Assembly (NCBI GenBank): GCA_001724275.1
Contig: MEDZ01000032.1
Coordinates: 1-40,732, forward strand
DNA length: 40,732 nt
Origin: Gemmatimonadetes bacterium SCN 70-22
GTDB lineage: Bacteria; Gemmatimonadota; Gemmatimonadetes; Gemmatimonadales; Gemmatimonadaceae
Direction: 5' to 3'
The notes beneath the pieces were generated by a model, which was not told the DNA's origin, did no database searches, and saw nothing but the letters and a program-made list of their open reading frames with translations. Position 1 is the stretch's first letter. Each line of letters starts with the position of its first letter. Positions 10,534 through 26,324 of the stretch are shown one piece after another. A program made the translations under genes and the position numbers.

Positions 10534-11382
10534 ATGACGACTCCCTCGCCCTTCCGTCCGGACCTGTACGCCGGCCAGGTTGCCCTCATCACCGGGGGCG
10601 GGAGCGGGATCGGCTTCGGCATCGCCGAGCTGCTGTCGTCGTTAGGCGCGACGGTGGCGATCGCCAGCCGCAACGCCGAGCGCCTGGCGCAGGCGGTGGA
10701 GCGGCTGCGGCAGGGGGGAGGCCGCGTGCACGCGGCCACCCTCGACGTGCGCGATCCCGACGCGGTGCGCGGGGTGGTGGAATCGGTGGCCGCCACCCAT
10801 GGGCGGATCGACCTCCTGGTGAACAACGCCGCCGGCAACTTCTACGTCCCCTCGGAGAAGATGTCGCCCAACGCCTGGCGCTCGGTGCTCGAGATCGACC
10901 TGTTCGGGACCTTCTACTGCACCCAGGCGGTCTTCCCCGTGATGCAGCGCCAGGGTGGGGGGAACGTCGTGAACATCTCGATGACGCTGCACTACCGCGG
11001 GTGGCCGTTGATGGCGCACGCGACGGCGGCCAAGGCGGGGATCGACGCGCTCACGCGGACGCTGGCCGTGGAGTGGGCGCCCCACGGGATCCGCGTCAAC
11101 GCCATCGCCCCCGGCCCCATCCCCACCGAGGGGGTGCGGAAGGCCTTCACCCCGCCGTCGGGGAGCGGGGCCACCGACGTCTTCGCCGTCGAGCGCGCCA
11201 TGGGGGATTACGCCCGGCAGACGATCCCGCTGGGGCGCTGGGGGACCCCGGCCGACGTCGCCAACGCCGTCGCCTTCCTGGCGTCGGGCGGGGCATCGTG
11301 GATCACGGGCGCGATCCTCGTCGTCGATGGCGGCGAGTGGCTCTGGAAGCCCCAGGCCCCCGCGGCGCCCCCGCCGGCGTGA
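10534..11382 (+). CDS. Short-chain dehydrogenase, 2,4-dienoyl-CoA reductase type
   Basis: 282 aa Rossmann SDR: T-G-G-G-S-G-I-G (20-27) binds NADP(H), N-N-A-A-G-N-F lies near residue 105, and the C-terminal P-L-G-R-W-G-T-P element is SDR-like. The usual YxxxK is replaced by H-A-T-A-A-K-A-G, with A-P-G-P-I-P-T-E-G-V downstream. This is the pattern of 2,4-dienoyl-CoA reductases (compare the peroxisomal enzyme's H-x3-A-K), which use a different catalytic tyrosine, so the protein is probably an active enzyme of unsaturated fatty-acid beta-oxidation. It is 4 bp downstream of rnhB and may be cotranscribed. One TTA-GGC pair at 10640. Confidence 0.88.
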   Translation: MTTPSPFRPDLYAGQVALITGGGSGIGFGIAELLSSLGATVAIASRNAERLAQAVERLRQGGGRVHAATLDVRDPDAVRGVVESVAATHGRIDLLVNNAAGNFYVPSEKMSPNAWRSVLEIDLFGTFYCTQAVFPVMQRQGGGNVVNISMTLHYRGWPLMAHATAAKAGIDALTRTLAVEWAPHGIRVNAIAPGPIPTEGVRKAFTPPSGSGATDVFAVERAMGDYARQTIPLGRWGTPADVANAVAFLASGGASWITGAILVVDGGEWLWKPQAPAAPPPA

Positions 11383-11399
11383 GGCCGGCGGCCGTCGGG

Positions 11400-11417
11400 G
11401 TGTGACGCGCCTCACAC
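11400..11417. promoter_or_regulatory. CRP/FNR-like site, upstream copy
   Basis: GTGTGA-N6-TCACAC, a perfect palindrome matching the TGTGA-N6-TCACA consensus of CRP-family regulators. Centre at 11408.5, exactly 60 bp upstream of the second copy and about 101.5 bp upstream of the inferred transcription start of the Pal-like gene. Confidence 0.7.
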
Positions 11418-11459
11418 GAGACGGGGCGTCCGGCTCTGCCGCATTAGTCGTTGGTTACG

Positions 11460-11477
11460 GTGTGACTGTGGTCACAC
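11460..11477. promoter_or_regulatory. CRP/FNR-like site, promoter-proximal copy
   Basis: GTGTGAC-N4-GTCACAC, again TGTGA-N6-TCACA. Centre at 11468.5. Taking the -10 box at 11498-11503, the transcription start would fall near 11510, placing this site at about -41.5, the class II activator position, where it replaces a -35 element. No -35 consensus is visible at that place. Confidence 0.75.
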
Positions 11478-11497
11478 GCGGAATTCCCTGCCGCTGC

Positions 11498-11503
11498 TAT
11501 ACT
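11498..11503 (+). promoter_or_regulatory. -10 box of the Pal-like gene promoter
   Basis: TATACT in otherwise GC-rich DNA, 30 bp after the centre of the proximal CRP-like site and 92 bp before the start codon of the lipoprotein gene. Confidence 0.6.
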
Positions 11504-11595
11504 CCTCCCGTGCTCGTTGCTCCCCAGCGGACAGTCCACCTGACGGGGCGCGCGGCACGAGAAGCCAACACTCAGCCTACCTGAGGAGTTCATCA

Positions 11596-12243
11596 ATGCA
11601 CGGTATGTACAAGCTGGCCGCGACTGCGGCCGCGGCGGTGGCCCTGAGCGCCTGCGCCACCAAGGGATATGTCCGCAACACCGTCGAGACGGGTCTGTCG
11701 ACCGAGCGCGTCGCCCGCGCGCAGGGGGACAGCGCCCTCTCCGGCGACATCACCGCGGTGAAGGGTGAGGTCGCCACGCTGAAGAACGACGTCGCCGCGC
11801 TCCGCCGCGACCTCACCGCGCTCCGCACCGAGTTCGGCGCCAAGATCACGGCGATGGAGAACGGGATGAAGTTCGCCTTCCCGGTGACCTTCGCGTTCGA
11901 CGACGCCACGGTCCGTGACGAGGATCGCCCGCAGCTGGATCGCTTCGTCTCCGTCGTGAACAAGTACTACGGCGGCTCGCTGCTGACGGTCGAGGGCTTC
12001 ACCGACCCGGCGGGTTCCGCCAGCTACAACAAGGACCTCTCCAAGCGCCGCGCCGAGTCGGTCGCCGCGTACCTGGCGCAGGCCGGGGTGCAGGGCGTCA
12101 CCATCCGCACCGTCGGCATGGGCGAGGCGCGCCAGGTGGTCGAGGGCGCCGAGCGCGACCAGCCGGGGGCGCAGGCCAACCGCCGCGTGGTCTTCGTGGT
12201 CGAGACCCAGGGCGGCGCCGCCACCACCGCCTCGATCCAGTAA
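11596..12243 (+). CDS. OmpA/Pal-type peptidoglycan-binding lipoprotein
   Basis: 215 aa. Signal peptide 1-19 with lipobox L-S-A-C (C20 lipidated), a heptad-rich coiled coil (about 45-90, D-I-T-A-V-K-G-E-V-A-T-L-K), and an OmpA C-terminal domain (about 95-205) containing G-F-T-D-P-A-G-S and L-S-K-R-R-A. D137 and R152 are placed like the diaminopimelate-binding Asp and Arg of OmpA, so it should tether the outer membrane to peptidoglycan, similar to Pal or Lpp-OmpA hybrids. AGGAG at 11584-11588 supports the ATG. A single gene between a CRP-like-controlled promoter and a strong terminator; no tol genes are nearby. Confidence 0.92.
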   Translation: MHGMYKLAATAAAAVALSACATKGYVRNTVETGLSTERVARAQGDSALSGDITAVKGEVATLKNDVAALRRDLTALRTEFGAKITAMENGMKFAFPVTFAFDDATVRDEDRPQLDRFVSVVNKYYGGSLLTVEGFTDPAGSASYNKDLSKRRAESVAAYLAQAGVQGVTIRTVGMGEARQVVEGAERDQPGAQANRRVVFVVETQGGAATTASIQ

Positions 12244-12272
12244 GCGGACCCCGCTCCGCACCGCACCATCCG

Positions 12273-12303
12273 AAGGGGCCCCGGCACGTGCCGGGGCCCC
12301 TTT
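12273..12303 (+). terminator. Rho-independent terminator of the Pal-like gene
   Basis: A perfect 30-bp inverted repeat: AAGGGGCCCCGGCAC directly followed by its complement, then TTT. It lies 29 bp after the stop codon. Probably ends the monocistronic transcript before tRNA-Lys. Confidence 0.9.
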
Positions 12304-12393
12304 CGCGTGCGACGGATGCGGCGAGGGCGGTCGGGGCGCCTCGCCGTGGTACACACCCGGGGCGATGCGCGGTAGATTGCCGGAGCCGTGTCA

Positions 12394-12466
<73 letters not shown>

Positions 12467-16936: not shown

Positions 16937-17413
16937 TTACGTCCTCACCCAATCCCCACTCTTCCCGCCGCGCTTCTCGATGAGAGAAATCTGTGCGAGT
17001 TCCATGCCCTTATCCACCCCTTTAGCCATGTCGTAAATTGTGATCAAACTCACACTTACGGCCGTCATGGCCTCCATTTCCACCCCGGTGGAACCGGTGG
17101 TTCTTGCCGTCGCCTCCACCCACACGCCGGGGAGGGCATCGTCCAGGTCGAAGGCTATCTGGATGTCGGACAAGGCGATGGGGTGACACAGCGGGATGAG
17201 TTCGGCGGTCCGTTTCGCCCCCATCACCCCGGCAATTCTTGCCACGGCGAGGACGTCGCCCTTGGCCACCTGGTTGTTGCGGATGAGCGTCAGTGTCTCG
17301 GGACGCATGCGAATGGCCCCCCGGGCGCGCGCCATGCGGACCGTCGGGGCCTTGTCCGTGATGTCGACCATCCGTGCGTGGCCGGAGGGGTCGACGTGGG
17401 TCAGGTTGGACAT
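16937..17413 (-). CDS. moaC: Cyclic pyranopterin monophosphate synthase MoaC
   Basis: Second step of molybdenum cofactor synthesis, converting the GTP-derived cyclic intermediate made by MoaA into cPMP. 158 aa: M-V-D-I-T-D-K (15-21), A-K-R-T-A-E-L-I-P-L-C-H-P (66-78), G-V-E-M-E-A-M-T-A-V-S-V (110-121) and I-Y-D-M-A-K (126-131), with D128 and K131 matching E. coli catalytic D128/K131. No other moa genes are in the window. The start codon directly abuts a purine repeat on the + strand, so the mRNA leader is pyrimidine-rich and lacks a Shine-Dalgarno. Confidence 0.96.
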   Translation of the reverse strand: MSNLTHVDPSGHARMVDITDKAPTVRMARARGAIRMRPETLTLIRNNQVAKGDVLAVARIAGVMGAKRTAELIPLCHPIALSDIQIAFDLDDALPGVWVEATARTTGSTGVEMEAMTAVSVSLITIYDMAKGVDKGMELAQISLIEKRGGKSGDWVRT

Positions 17414-21981: not shown

Positions 21982-23604
21982 CTAGCGCGCTCGCTTGGCG
22001 AGGCGCTCGCTGTACCGCAGCGCGTCGCGGATCCCTAGCGACGGCAACCCCTCGAGTCGCGCCGAGACGGCCTGGATCTCCCGCGGGTAGAAGAGGACCA
22101 TGACCGGCGGATCCTCCATCTCGATACGCTGGAAGGCGTGGTAGATCTCCCGGCGCTTCGCGGGGTCGAGGGTGATCCGTCCCAGCGCGAGGAGCGAATC
22201 GGCCAGCGGGTTCGACCACTGCACGTTGTTGTTGTCCTGCCCCGAGTGGTAGAACGCGTACTGGTCGGGGTCTGGCGGAGTCGTCCACCAGATCAGCGTG
22301 GCGTCGAAGGTTCCGGGGAGGATGCGGTCGCGCACCAGCGCCGCGAACTCCATCGTCCGGATGGAGACGCGAATCCCGATCTTCTGCAGGTCCTGCTGCA
22401 CCGACAGCGCCGACTGCTCGCGCGTGGGGTTTCCCTTGTCCACGAGGAGCTCGATGTCGAACGGCGTGCCGCGCGCATCGCGCAGCGTGCCGTCATGCCC
22501 GCGACGCCATCCGGCACGCTGCAGCAGGAGGAGGGCCGAGTCGGGGGCGTAGGGGATCGGGGGGAGGGAGTCGGCGAAGTACGCCTCGAGGGCGACCGGG
22601 ATCGTCCCCCGGGGCATGTCGGCGTAGTCGCGGAGCACTCCCTTGATGATGGCCTCGCGATTGACCGCCATGCCTAACGCTCGCCGGACCTCGGCGGGCC
22701 GGAATCGTGACTTCCGGAGGTTGAACGCGACGTAGTAGTGCTGGACGACCGGGACCTGCAGGACCTCGACGCCCCGTGCTCCCTGCACGCTGGCCAGGTT
22801 GGACGGCTCGATGGTGACGAGGTCGAGCTCACCGGCGCGCAGCTGCGCCACTTGGGCATTGAGGTCGGGAACGACCTTGAAGAGGATGCGATCCAGCCGG
22901 GGCGCCTCGCCGTGGTAGCGCGGGTTGCGGACCAGCGTGAGCGACGCGCCGGGGACGACTTCCTGGACCATGAACGGTCCGGTGCCGACCGGGTGCCGGC
23001 GATTGAAGTTCGTCGCCGCGGTCAGCGGCTTCCCCTGCAGCAGGTGCTTGGGGAGGATTCCGGCGTTGTAGCCGAGGAGGGTGAGGAACGGGGCGAAGGG
23101 GGCGCGCAGGCGGAAGGTGACGGTGAGCGAGTCCTCGACGTCGACCCCGGCGAGCGCGGCGAAGTCGGAGCGGAGGCGCGAGCCGGACGCGAGGTCGACC
23201 ACCTGGTCGAAGGTGAACTTGACGTCGTGGGCGCTGAAGGGCGCCCCGTCGTGCCACGTCACGCCGCGGCGCAGCTTGAAGGTGATGCGCAGCCCGTCCT
23301 CGCTCGTGACCCACGACTCGGCGAGGTCCGGCGTGGGGCGGAGCTGTTCGTCGGGGCGCACCAGTCCCGGGAAGAGCACCTTGTTGACCATCACCGACCC
23401 GATGTCGGGGGCGATGACCGGGTCGAGGATCGGGTCGTTGATGAGCGGGATGCGCAGCGTCCCGCCATTTCGCGCCTCGTCGGCGCCGCGTCGTGCCTCG
23501 CTTGCGCCGCCGCAGGCGATGAGGGCGAGCACGACGCCGCAGCGCAGCGACCGGTGCAGCACGCTTCGCGGCCGGGGGCGACGGGGACAGGCGCGATGGT
23601 TCAC
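21982..23604 (-). CDS. Peptide-binding lipoprotein, SBP family 5
   Basis: 540 aa from a GTG at 23604 that overlaps the M28 peptidase stop by 4 bp (GTGA). Signal peptide with lipobox L-I-A-C (C31 lipidated), then a family 5 solute-binding fold: G-G-T-L-R-I-P (47-53), A-E-S-W (94-97 region), L-R-R-G-V-T-W-H-D-G-A-P-F-S-A-H-D-V (the SBP5 signature) and P-V-G-T-G-P-F (215 region). Delivers oligopeptides or similar solutes to the adjacent permeases. One TTA-GGC pair at 22672. A longer reading frame up to 26274 is an artefact over the M28 gene. Confidence 0.93.
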   Translation of the reverse strand: MNHRACPRRPRPRSVLHRSLRCGVVLALIACGGASEARRGADEARNGGTLRIPLINDPILDPVIAPDIGSVMVNKVLFPGLVRPDEQLRPTPDLAESWVTSEDGLRITFKLRRGVTWHDGAPFSAHDVKFTFDQVVDLASGSRLRSDFAALAGVDVEDSLTVTFRLRAPFAPFLTLLGYNAGILPKHLLQGKPLTAATNFNRRHPVGTGPFMVQEVVPGASLTLVRNPRYHGEAPRLDRILFKVVPDLNAQVAQLRAGELDLVTIEPSNLASVQGARGVEVLQVPVVQHYYVAFNLRKSRFRPAEVRRALGMAVNREAIIKGVLRDYADMPRGTIPVALEAYFADSLPPIPYAPDSALLLLQRAGWRRGHDGTLRDARGTPFDIELLVDKGNPTREQSALSVQQDLQKIGIRVSIRTMEFAALVRDRILPGTFDATLIWWTTPPDPDQYAFYHSGQDNNNVQWSNPLADSLLALGRITLDPAKRREIYHAFQRIEMEDPPVMVLFYPREIQAVSARLEGLPSLGIRDALRYSERLAKRAR

Positions 23605-25463
23605 GCCATCGCCTCCTCCACCGTGCGCCGGGCATCGCGGAGCGCCGCGACCAGCCGGTTCTGGCCGCGCAGGAGGTGCGTGCGCAGGAAGCCGATGTCT
23701 TCCGGTGCCATGGCGGGAGCGGCGAGCGCCGGCGACAGGTCGGGGAGCGGGGGGGTGGTCTCGGCGGGGTCGTGGAAGAACGCCGGCCCGCGCGTGTAGT
23801 TGACCGGGACGAGGAGGCGTGCCAGCCGGCGGACGGCGCGGTTCACGCGCTGGACGCGGGGATCGGCGATCGGGCGCGTCGCCAGCGTGGCGGCGTGGGC
23901 GCCTAACGACTGAAGCGTGGCATCGAGCTCGGCGATGGCGGTGCGCGCCGGGCCGAAGTCGAAGGTGCCGGCGACCGCCTCCTGGTACCGGTCGAGCGTC
24001 CCGGAAAAGGTGCGCAGCGTATGCCGGAAGTCGAACGGCGCCACGGTGGCGTTGGCCACCCCCATCACGGCGGCCAGGTAGATGCGGATGTCCTTGAGGA
24101 GGATGTCGCGGTCGGCGATGTGGATCAGGTCCTCCTCCGTGTGCCAGGCGATGTTCGCGCCGCACCCGCCGACGGCGTAGTACCCGAGCTCGTCCCGGTG
24201 CGCATCCTTCATGGTCGAGAGGAGCATGAAGAACGAGGAGATTCCGATGTTGTTGAAGGAGTAGTCGCCGGCCTGGTGGGGGCGCTCGCCGTGCGACTCC
24301 TGTCCGGTGACGTCGCGGATGATCCCCTGGCAGAACGCCTCGGTCTCGTCCATCCACGAGATGTCCTTGTACTCGGTGGCCCAGCGGCATCCCGGCGAGT
24401 CGCAGTTGACCTGGGCGATGCAGTGCTCGTAGAGGTCGAGGGCGAAGGCGTCGGCAAACCATGTGCTGCCGGCGTAGCGGCCGGTGGAATGTCCGGGCCA
24501 CCACGCAATCCTGACGCTGCGCTTGAGGGCGCGGCGGTGCTCCCACAGCACCCGGGCGATCTCGAGGAGGGCGGCGTCGCCGACGGCGTTGTCGCCGATC
24601 CCGAAGTCCCACGAGTCGTAGTGCCCGTGCAGCAGGACGAAGTCGTCGGGCTCGTCGGTGCCGGGGATCGTCACGACGGGGATCGGCGATTCCCACCACC
24701 CCTCGGTGACCACGCTCGTGAGGGTGACACTGCCGCCGGCCTTGGCGAGCGCGATGAGGGCAAGGCCATCGGGGTTGTTCACGGCGACGACGGCCATGCG
24801 GGGCTTGCGCGGCAGGTCCCGCAGGTCGGGGGTCCCCCAGACGGTGGTGCAGATCCCCCAGTGCGCGTTGTGGCCGGGGTTCACCGCGATCATGCCGATG
24901 GCGCCGCGCTCCTGGAAGTACGCCACCTTGCCCGGCATCCCGAACCCTTCGCTCAGGACCAGCTTGCCGCGGAGGTCGACCTCGGCGTCGCTGACGAAGC
25001 CCTTGGTGAACATCTCGTCGGCGTTCCGCGCATAACGAGCCGGGACATAGGCGAGGGGGGCGGTGACGCCGCCGGGGAACGGGACCGACATCGCCATCGG
25101 CTTGGCGCGGAACTCCTGCGCGCCGGCGGTGATTCGTGCCGCGCCCGGGAGTGAGAGGAAGAGCGTCGGCCGGTGCACCTCCACGGGGACCCCGAGGCGC
25201 GTTAGGCGATCGACGATCTCGCCAGCCGCCGTCGCCACGTCGCGGGGGTGCTCGCGCTTGAGGGTGGTGAAGCGCTCGATGAGCGACCAGGGTTCGTCGA
25301 GGGTGACGCTGGCGAGGGCGGCGGACTGTTCGGGCGACAGGGACACGGGAGCGGCTGCCGGGGGGGGGCGCGAGGCGCGAGGGCGTCGCGCCGCGGGAGG
25401 AGAGGAGGCGGGGGTGCGCGGAAACGCCGTGAGCAATTGCAGGGTGGCGCGAGGGACTGTCAA
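23601..25463 (-). CDS. M28-family metallopeptidase with PA domain and altered active site
   Basis: 620 aa from a TTG at 25463; the first 40 residues are low-complexity and the start is uncertain (no Shine-Dalgarno). A PA-like insert spans about 130-265. The peptidase domain has the zinc ligands H281-x-D283 (H-G-H-Y-D-S), D291 (I-G-D-N-A-V-G), D355 (V-N-C-D-S-P-G) and H441 (A-W-H-T-E-E-D). The expected catalytic Glu-Glu (G-E-E-x-G) is replaced by G324-H325-S326-T-G, so the general-base Glu is missing at that place. No clear signal peptide. It opens the importer operon, so it probably trims or releases peptides for uptake. One TTA-GGC pair (23901), and the motif in reverse at 25200. Confidence 0.85.
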   Translation of the reverse strand: MTVPRATLQLLTAFPRTPASSPPAARRPRASRPPPAAAPVSLSPEQSAALASVTLDEPWSLIERFTTLKREHPRDVATAAGEIVDRLTRLGVPVEVHRPTLFLSLPGAARITAGAQEFRAKPMAMSVPFPGGVTAPLAYVPARYARNADEMFTKGFVSDAEVDLRGKLVLSEGFGMPGKVAYFQERGAIGMIAVNPGHNAHWGICTTVWGTPDLRDLPRKPRMAVVAVNNPDGLALIALAKAGGSVTLTSVVTEGWWESPIPVVTIPGTDEPDDFVLLHGHYDSWDFGIGDNAVGDAALLEIARVLWEHRRALKRSVRIAWWPGHSTGRYAGSTWFADAFALDLYEHCIAQVNCDSPGCRWATEYKDISWMDETEAFCQGIIRDVTGQESHGERPHQAGDYSFNNIGISSFFMLLSTMKDAHRDELGYYAVGGCGANIAWHTEEDLIHIADRDILLKDIRIYLAAVMGVANATVAPFDFRHTLRTFSGTLDRYQEAVAGTFDFGPARTAIAELDATLQSLGAHAATLATRPIADPRVQRVNRAVRRLARLLVPVNYTRGPAFFHDPAETTPPLPDLSPALAAPAMAPEDIGFLRTHLLRGQNRLVAALRDARRTVEEAMA

Positions 25464-25651
25464 GGGTGAGCGCCATTGGTGTGGAACGTCTCATCCGCGC
25501 GGCGGCCCGGACGGGCCGCGCCGGGGTACGCAGTGCCCCCGAAAGGACACCGTCGCGTCCACCCGCGGCGACACCGCGCGCCATGACGACGCATGCGACG
25601 AATGCGTACGACGCCATGCCACAACGACTTGCACGGCGCGATACGTTGCGC

Positions 25652-25665
25652 GTGCCACGTGGCAC
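25652..25665. promoter_or_regulatory. 14-bp perfect palindrome GTGCCAC/GTGGCAC
   Basis: An exact inverted repeat with no spacer, 87 bp before the Arg/Asp-rich secreted-protein gene, in the 289-bp gap divergent from the M28 gene. Candidate operator; no promoter boxes are clear beside it. I see no gene in 25464-25752. Confidence 0.4.
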
Positions 25666-25752
25666 CGATGCTGCCCTATTCGTTGGCGCAGGCGCCGACC
25701 GCGACGGTGCGGTCGCCACCTGGTGGAGTTCACCAACGACGCAGGAGCAACC

Positions 25753-26262
25753 ATGCGCACCGCATTGTCCGTCTTGATGGCCAGCGCCGTCTTCGCGATC
25801 TCCCCGGTGGCGGGGAATGCCCAGCCGCGTGGCGGCGACCTTCCGTCCCGCGTGCGCGACGTCATCACCGACCGCGGCAACGCGCCTGCGTCGCGCGGCC
25901 GTGACGGAAGCTGGGACTGGGAGCGCTCGCGCGATGCGGATCGTTCCAGCAACCGTGACTGGGAGCGCGACCGGGACCGTGATCGTCGTGACGACCGCGT
26001 CTACAACCGCGGGAAGGGGCGCGGTTATGGATGGGGGATCAGCAAGCAGGAACAGAAGGCATGGGAGCGCAGCCAGCGCGACTTCGAGCGCCGGAGCCGC
26101 AACTGGAGTCGCTACCAGTGGGAGGCGTATCGCGAGTGCGAGCGCGACATGTACCGTCGCTCGCGCTGGGACCGCTACGATGCGGGCCAGCGTGAGGCGA
26201 TGCGCGAGCGGATCCGGATTCGCGATTACTGCGAGAGCCGCGTCGGGCGCATGCGCTGGTAG
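25753..26262 (+). CDS. Secreted Arg/Asp-rich hypothetical protein
   Basis: 169 aa from the ATG at 25753, supported by AGGAG at 25742-25746. Signal peptide about 1-23 (L-S-V-L-M-A-S-A-V-F-A-I, then A-G-N-A-Q). The mature protein is extremely charged: residues 45-90 are dominated by alternating Arg and Asp (D-R-D-R-D-R-R-D-D-R), then Trp/Tyr/Arg-rich segments with E-R-S-Q-R-D-F-E-R-R and two late cysteines that could pair. No known domain. Upstream frame extension is a shadow of the M28 gene. Followed by a strong terminator, so probably monocistronic. Function unknown; such charged proteins may bind polyanions in the envelope, which is speculation. Confidence 0.75.
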   Translation: MRTALSVLMASAVFAISPVAGNAQPRGGDLPSRVRDVITDRGNAPASRGRDGSWDWERSRDADRSSNRDWERDRDRDRRDDRVYNRGKGRGYGWGISKQEQKAWERSQRDFERRSRNWSRYQWEAYRECERDMYRRSRWDRYDAGQREAMRERIRIRDYCESRVGRMRW

Positions 26263-26324
26263 CGGGCCTGGCATCGCGCACGCCGGGCGCCGGTAGCCAG
26301 CGGCACGTCCCGCGGGCGAACTTG

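Follow-up and report, generated by a model that had tools for sequence, protein, structure and literature searches.

The gap upstream of an OmpA-family lipoprotein gene in Gemmatimonadetes bacterium SCN 70-22 is probably a promoter activated by a CRP-type protein, at which a single regulator together with its ligand would act from a class II position at −41.5, with a second dimer at −101.5. Direct observation covers the sites, how they are conserved and spaced, and the regulator with its recognition helix. The window, by which we mean the whole analyzed stretch of 40,732 nucleotides, corresponds to contig C32 in a genome of 4.70 Mb that is 99.98% complete, and the G+C content of the window is 70.4%.

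Results

Two perfect palindromes precede a predicted −10 hexamer

The gap between the short-chain dehydrogenase (SDR) gene and the lipoprotein gene measures 213 bp and holds both palindromes, followed by TATACT (Table 1). As the original prediction had claimed, both sites match TGTGA-N6-TCACA at 10/10 positions and lie 60 bp apart from center to center, far beyond chance: perfect matches in the window number three where 0.02 are expected, and none of 100 shuffles reached three. Both sites have the flanks GTGTGAC...TCACAC. Taking the first base of TATACT as −12, which puts the predicted +1 at about 11510, we obtained the same centers as the prediction had given (−41.5 and −101.5); the class II position of the proximal palindrome is counted from the hexamer with an inferred +1, and its spacing recurs in relatives. 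No consensus −35/−10 pair was found in 11350–12400, and its absence fits an activator-dependent promoter.

Table 1. Features of the lipoprotein promoter region (window coordinates)
Feature	Position	Strand	Details
Upstream neighbor, short-chain dehydrogenase (SDR) gene	10534–11382	+	Regulatory gap begins after its 3′ end
Distal CRP-type palindrome	11401–11416		TGTGACGCGCCTCACA; 10/10 match; center at about −101.5
Proximal CRP-type palindrome	11461–11476		TGTGACTGTGGTCACA; 10/10 match; center at about −41.5 (class II position)
TATACT, predicted −10 hexamer	11498–11503	+	TANNNT at equal offset in 23/61 related promoters
Predicted target gene, 215-aa OmpA-family lipoprotein	11596–12243	+	Lipobox Cys20; helix 22–80; peptidoglycan-binding OmpA domain 98–188

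The third perfect match in the window (17039–17054) sits within the moaC coding sequence and is unrelated to the lipoprotein promoter. It holds the same position in the gene in four genomes, falls on codons within a conserved part of it, and appears to be a coincidence of the coding sequence. Also in the window is an open frame of 1430 aa (21982–26274), in which Pfam recognized only a family 5 solute-binding domain (residues 980–1348); the 980 residues ahead of it drew no match.

The site is conserved before orthologues of the lipoprotein gene

We searched 60 genomes and counted the best match in 24 of them as an orthologue (L011–L034); L035–L040 were set aside as other OmpA proteins, and no site of at least 8/10 precedes them. 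The motif was scored over the 10 bases of TGTGA-N6-TCACA within 230 bases upstream of the start codon. Among the 24 orthologues, the site scored at least 8/10 in 21, at least 9/10 in 16, and 10/10 in 10, compared with means of 2.0, 0.135, and 0.02 for dinucleotide shuffles, and the coding regions, used as a control, gave 0 at 9/10 or better. In a ranking of 390 motif/gap pairs built from permuted half-sites, TGTGA-N6-TCACA itself came first (16/24) and its one-base shift second (13/24), with all others at 5 or fewer.

Eighty named loci were examined in the same manner; three were excluded, L141 for a match that begins at the locus edge and L146 and L157 for short upstream DNA, leaving 57 orthologues of at least 47% identity and 20 relatives below 47%. 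At thresholds of 8, 9, and 10, the site was present before 50, 35, and 14 of the orthologues and before 3, 2, and 0 of the more distant relatives. The sets of 24 and 57 partly overlap; pooled, they comprise 81 promoters, or 70 once promoters more than 85% alike were removed, and the site scored at least 8/10 in 61 of these 70. By contrast, crp promoters in the same genomes reached 9/10 in only 5 of 30 cases.

Class II spacing recurs in diverged promoters

We counted the start of the hexamer TANNNT from the end of the 16-mer in 61 promoters: 13 have it at offset 21 and 10 at offset 22, whereas the mean over all 84 offsets was 0.70 (about 0.44 without offsets 21 and 22). After strict de-duplication, 11 of 39 promoters had TANNNT at these two offsets and every other offset had at most 2. 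Offsets 21 and 22 correspond to a site center at −41.5 or −42.5 if the first hexamer base is −12. In 38 of the 61 promoters, TANNNT is absent from the class II offset.

A second site lies 30 to 110 bp upstream in 19 of the 61 promoters (shuffles: mean 2.07, maximum 6), at site-to-site spacings of 30–31, 40–41, 50, 57–60, 72–75, 82–85, and 109 bp. At a period of 10.5 bp, the phase of these spacings gave R = 0.61 (p = 0.00025, 22 values), and R = 0.55 (p = 0.006, 17 values) in a reduced set from which near-identical promoters were taken out by hand. We regard helical phasing of the two sites as suggestive only, because a score threshold and related promoters underlie the set of spacings. A GG-N10-GC pair also recurs: 7 of the 61 promoters share it at one offset, where the mean is 0.43. 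In these promoters (L018, L027, L085, L088, L091, L096, and L102), it overlaps TAGCAT or TAGCTT downstream of the CRP-type site. Sigma-54 genes were present in all 6 genomes checked.

The genome encodes a single CRP-type regulator

A PF00325 (Crp helix-turn-helix) profile search of the source genome returned exactly one protein, so that the CRP-family regulator implied by the original prediction does exist, with a CRP-like recognition helix. It is a protein of 241 aa encoded on contig C15, and its cNMP-binding (PF00027), HTH_Crp_2 (PF13545), and Crp (PF00325) matches are all above the cut-offs. The recognition helix reads ASRETVSR. CRP-type recognition helices follow the rule RE-x3-R, which the regulator satisfies with SRETVSR, a sequence common to all 30 regulator orthologues examined. 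Seven genomes yielded 8 more Crp-domain matches; SRETVSR or TRETVSR occurs in 7 of these, and ARESVSR in the remaining one, which is a second protein from G054. FNR-type sites have the consensus TTGAT-N4-ATCAA, and we rejected an FNR-type reading, as both the sites and the regulator helix are of the CRP type. Against the NCBIfam CRP equivalog NF008732, the regulator scored 114.5 bits, below the curated cut-off of 266; by these scores it is classified as a CRP-family protein and is not filed as an equivalog of E. coli CRP.

The best full-length relatives of the regulator among solved structures are 3r6s/4byy/4cyd, which we take to be GlxR, and 3d0s/3i54, presumably the Mycobacterium tuberculosis CRP. 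In the C-helix, Ala-Asp of the regulator aligns with Thr-Asn of these two proteins. We take Thr-Asn to be the adenine contacts, and because it is replaced by Ala-Asp, cAMP may not be the ligand of the regulator. The ligand is probably a cyclic nucleotide from the one class III cyclase domain found in the genome, in a protein that we read as FHA-GAF-cyclase. Besides the regulator, a PF00027 search returned one protein, in which a cyclic-nucleotide-binding domain is joined to an ammonia-lyase-like part (the lyase assigned by eye). The domain lies at the N terminus of this aspartase/fumarase-like enzyme (L010, minus strand, C19:5072–8332), and direct control of the ammonia-lyase by a cyclic nucleotide is possible.

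Of the 24 genomes, 21 have the regulator, and 20 of these have the site; the 3 without a regulator include 1 with the site (Fisher p = 0.03, with kinship ignored). G005 (95% complete) has no Crp-domain match and only a weak match to the regulator, and its best promoter score is 7; G028 (74% complete) has the same pattern. G029 (77% complete) is a counter-example, with a perfect site and no regulator found. In G054, which belongs to another family, a regulator with 52% identity occurs without the site. CRP-type control as originally read from the sites made predictions that could be examined in sequence, and these were borne out: one regulator, a family-wide site, class II spacing in a large minority of promoters, and joint absence of site and regulator in G005.

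Perfect sites across the genome include Rex-type palindromes

Perfect matches numbered 7 in the genome-wide search that the original prediction had proposed; base composition alone predicts about 0.76, and the reversed control gave none. When one mismatch was allowed, the motif gave 28 matches and the control 12. Three of the 7 perfect palindromes are of the Rex type (L001, L002, and L006, each at 1501–1516, on contigs C4, C31, and C52); they precede rex, a multihaem cytochrome gene (alternative complex III-like), and an apparent ATP synthase alpha gene, the last recognized by eye. These Rex-type sites, which recur in both congeners, likely form a redox regulon. They read CTTGTGAA...TTCACAAG or are near-identical to it and share the TGTGA-N6-TCACA core. 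Rex operators end in TTGTGAA...TTCACAA, and ends of this type are present at the rex gene of the source genome. Rex was rejected as the binder of the lipoprotein sites, where the flanks described above stand in place of Rex operator ends. When the 3 Rex-type sites and the moaC match are subtracted from the 7 perfect sites, 2 of the remaining 3 precede the lipoprotein gene. A genomic match before a CheY-like gene was rejected as a regulatory site, being within coding sequence (the surrounding frame is CheW-like by eye).

To look for further targets, we compared the 28 sites of the source genome with the sites fetched from two congeners (50 of 53 from G002 and 22 of 29 from G001, whose lipoprotein region is L012, outside the 22) and with regions around 60 chosen places in G007 and G013, most Rex-like ones being left out. 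Within the genus, and with the alignments inspected, intergenic sites recur before crp and before phosphomannomutase/phosphoglucomutase in 3/3 genomes each, and before a type IV pilin gene and a coiled-coil lipoprotein gene in 2/3 each. The CRP-type site between polA and the pilin gene (L071:1501–1516) recurs in a congener and lies near polA in a second genus (L191, L261); in G007, from that genus, sites were found by the polA end, beyond which the pilin gene lies in the source genome, and by a homologue of the coiled-coil lipoprotein. The pilin, coiled-coil lipoprotein, phosphomannomutase, and crp genes are leads, as candidate further targets. Family-wide autoregulation of crp was rejected on the count of 5/30 orthologues with a 9/10 site, despite its recurrence within the genus. 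The OmpA-type lipoprotein is the one predicted family-wide target in these data, the comparison for the pilin, coiled-coil lipoprotein, and phosphomannomutase genes having covered the source genome, its two congeners, and the chosen places in G007 and G013.

The predicted target is a YiaD-like lipoprotein distinct from Pal

The original prediction had called the product Pal-like, and this part of it did not hold. The lipoprotein (P0001) scored 58.2 bits against the Pal family TIGR02802, whose cut-off is 125.35, while a true Pal, above that cut-off, is encoded on contig C37 with TolB-like and CpoB-like frames on either side (neighbors assigned by eye). Its PF00691 (OmpA domain) match is 62.1 bits, and its best NCBIfam match is YiaD, at 88.9 against a family cut-off of 175; OmpA-family, YiaD-like lipoprotein describes it better. 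The lipobox cysteine C20 is invariant in 24 sequences. The predicted structure has a long single helix ahead of a confidently modeled OmpA domain, with 6jfw (PA0833) and 2k1s (YiaD) as the best fold matches. D137 and R152 are invariant, and we take these to be the peptidoglycan-binding residues; from the fold and these two residues, P0001 probably tethers the outer membrane to peptidoglycan.

The closest sequence among the 80 named loci is from a metagenome-assembled "Gemmatimonadetes bacterium" (91% protein identity), and many further named relatives are labeled Gemmatimonadaceae. A tblastn search of plasmids with the lipoprotein gave OmpA-type matches only, at less than 60% identity, none spanning 80% of the query.

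Discussion

We propose that the 241-aa regulator takes up a ligand, which would probably be a cyclic nucleotide made by the class III cyclase, and that the ligand-bound protein would then occupy the proximal palindrome at −41.5, overlapping the position where a −35 element, absent here, would normally lie, and recruit RNA polymerase to the TATACT −10 box by class II activation. The second dimer at −101.5 would contribute activation or cooperativity in a class III layout, and the tether between outer membrane and peptidoglycan would be produced in response to a second messenger. Binding of the regulator to the palindromes is inferred in this model, and it is the position of the sites that points to activation rather than repression.

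The strongest competing explanation is that the CRP-type protein binds but represses the lipoprotein gene, either by obstructing RNA polymerase at the −35 region or by drawing the DNA between the two sites into a loop. The roughly helical spacing of paired sites in relatives would suit such looping, and envelope proteins including TolB, OmpA, and RcsF increase in a Klebsiella crp mutant (PMC6985210). We nevertheless consider repression unlikely, since diverged promoters keep the distance to the −10 hexamer exactly at the class II activating value and the window promoter lacks the consensus −35 expected of a repressed strong promoter. Recognition of the sites by a different regulator (Rex or an FNR-type protein, for example) is improbable: L001, L002, and L006 do have the same core, but their ends differ from GTGTGAC...TCACAC, and the single PF00325 protein of the genome carries a helix of the CRP type.

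Still less probable is that some members of the family use a sigma-54 promoter modulated by the palindrome. This reading has in its favor the GG-N10-GC pair that 7/61 promoters share and the sigma-54 genes in 6/6 genomes, but those 7 promoters are close relatives that also have TAGCAT or TAGCTT at the class II offset, and the window promoter has no GG-N10-GC at the corresponding place (by eye). That the palindromes are chance or meaningless repeats can practically be discounted: the moaC palindrome does show that a perfect match can keep its position in relatives with no evident regulatory role, but the lipoprotein sites have family-wide intergenic conservation, fixed spacing, and the control motifs on their side. 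Activation by the CRP-type protein is the reading we retain.

The mechanism is an ordinary one, in an unstudied phylum and with an interesting target. Titles and abstracts of open papers gave no CRP target or regulon in Gemmatimonadota, and the lipoprotein gene would be a predicted first CRP target there, with a site, a spacing, a regulator, and a natural case of loss. The promoter layout suggests that the tether is not constitutive but switched in response to a signal molecule, which raises the question of whether outer-membrane anchoring is tuned by a second messenger or constant. We advance only tentatively, and with more doubt than belief, the broader idea that the CRP-type protein of Gemmatimonadaceae, a family with few cultured members, is chiefly a cell-surface regulator with the tether as its most conserved target and the coiled-coil lipoprotein, pilin, phosphomannomutase/phosphoglucomutase, and crp genes as additional ones, through which a cyclic nucleotide (perhaps not cAMP) would set outer-membrane anchoring and surface dressing.

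Among known systems, CRP motifs of E. coli concentrate at −41.5 (class II), −61.5 (class I), and −93.5 (class III), and deoC carries two CRP sites near −40 and −90 (PMC5957442). The window promoter resembles E. coli class II/III promoters in its site sequence, its predicted −41.5 center, a −10 hexamer without a good −35, and a second upstream site. It differs in belonging to another phylum, in its distal site at −101.5 (−91.5 in sister genera, with 50-bp spacing), and in its target, which is a lipoprotein tether and not a catabolic gene. CRP relatives of distant phyla with TGTGA-N6-TCACA-like sites are already known; GlxR of Corynebacterium glutamicum is reported to have such a site and to complement an E. 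coli crp mutant (PMC5449483). GlxR and the M. tuberculosis CRP are, by sequence, the nearest full-length structural relatives of our regulator, which differs from them in having Ala-Asp for Thr-Asn in the C-helix and a Gram-negative envelope target.

The target itself is like YiaD and PA0833 in being a lipoprotein with an OmpA peptidoglycan-binding domain, and unlike YiaD in scoring below the family cut-off (88.9 versus 175) and in the long helix (22–80) before that domain. The original prediction had held CRP-family control of a tethering lipoprotein to be unexpected, which was too strong: in Klebsiella pneumoniae, CRP status alters the amounts of outer-membrane and Tol-Pal proteins, with more ompA, tolB, and rcsF product in the crp mutant (PMC6985210). 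In contrast to that rise on crp deletion, the layout in the window predicts activation, and of a target that is neither Pal nor TolB.
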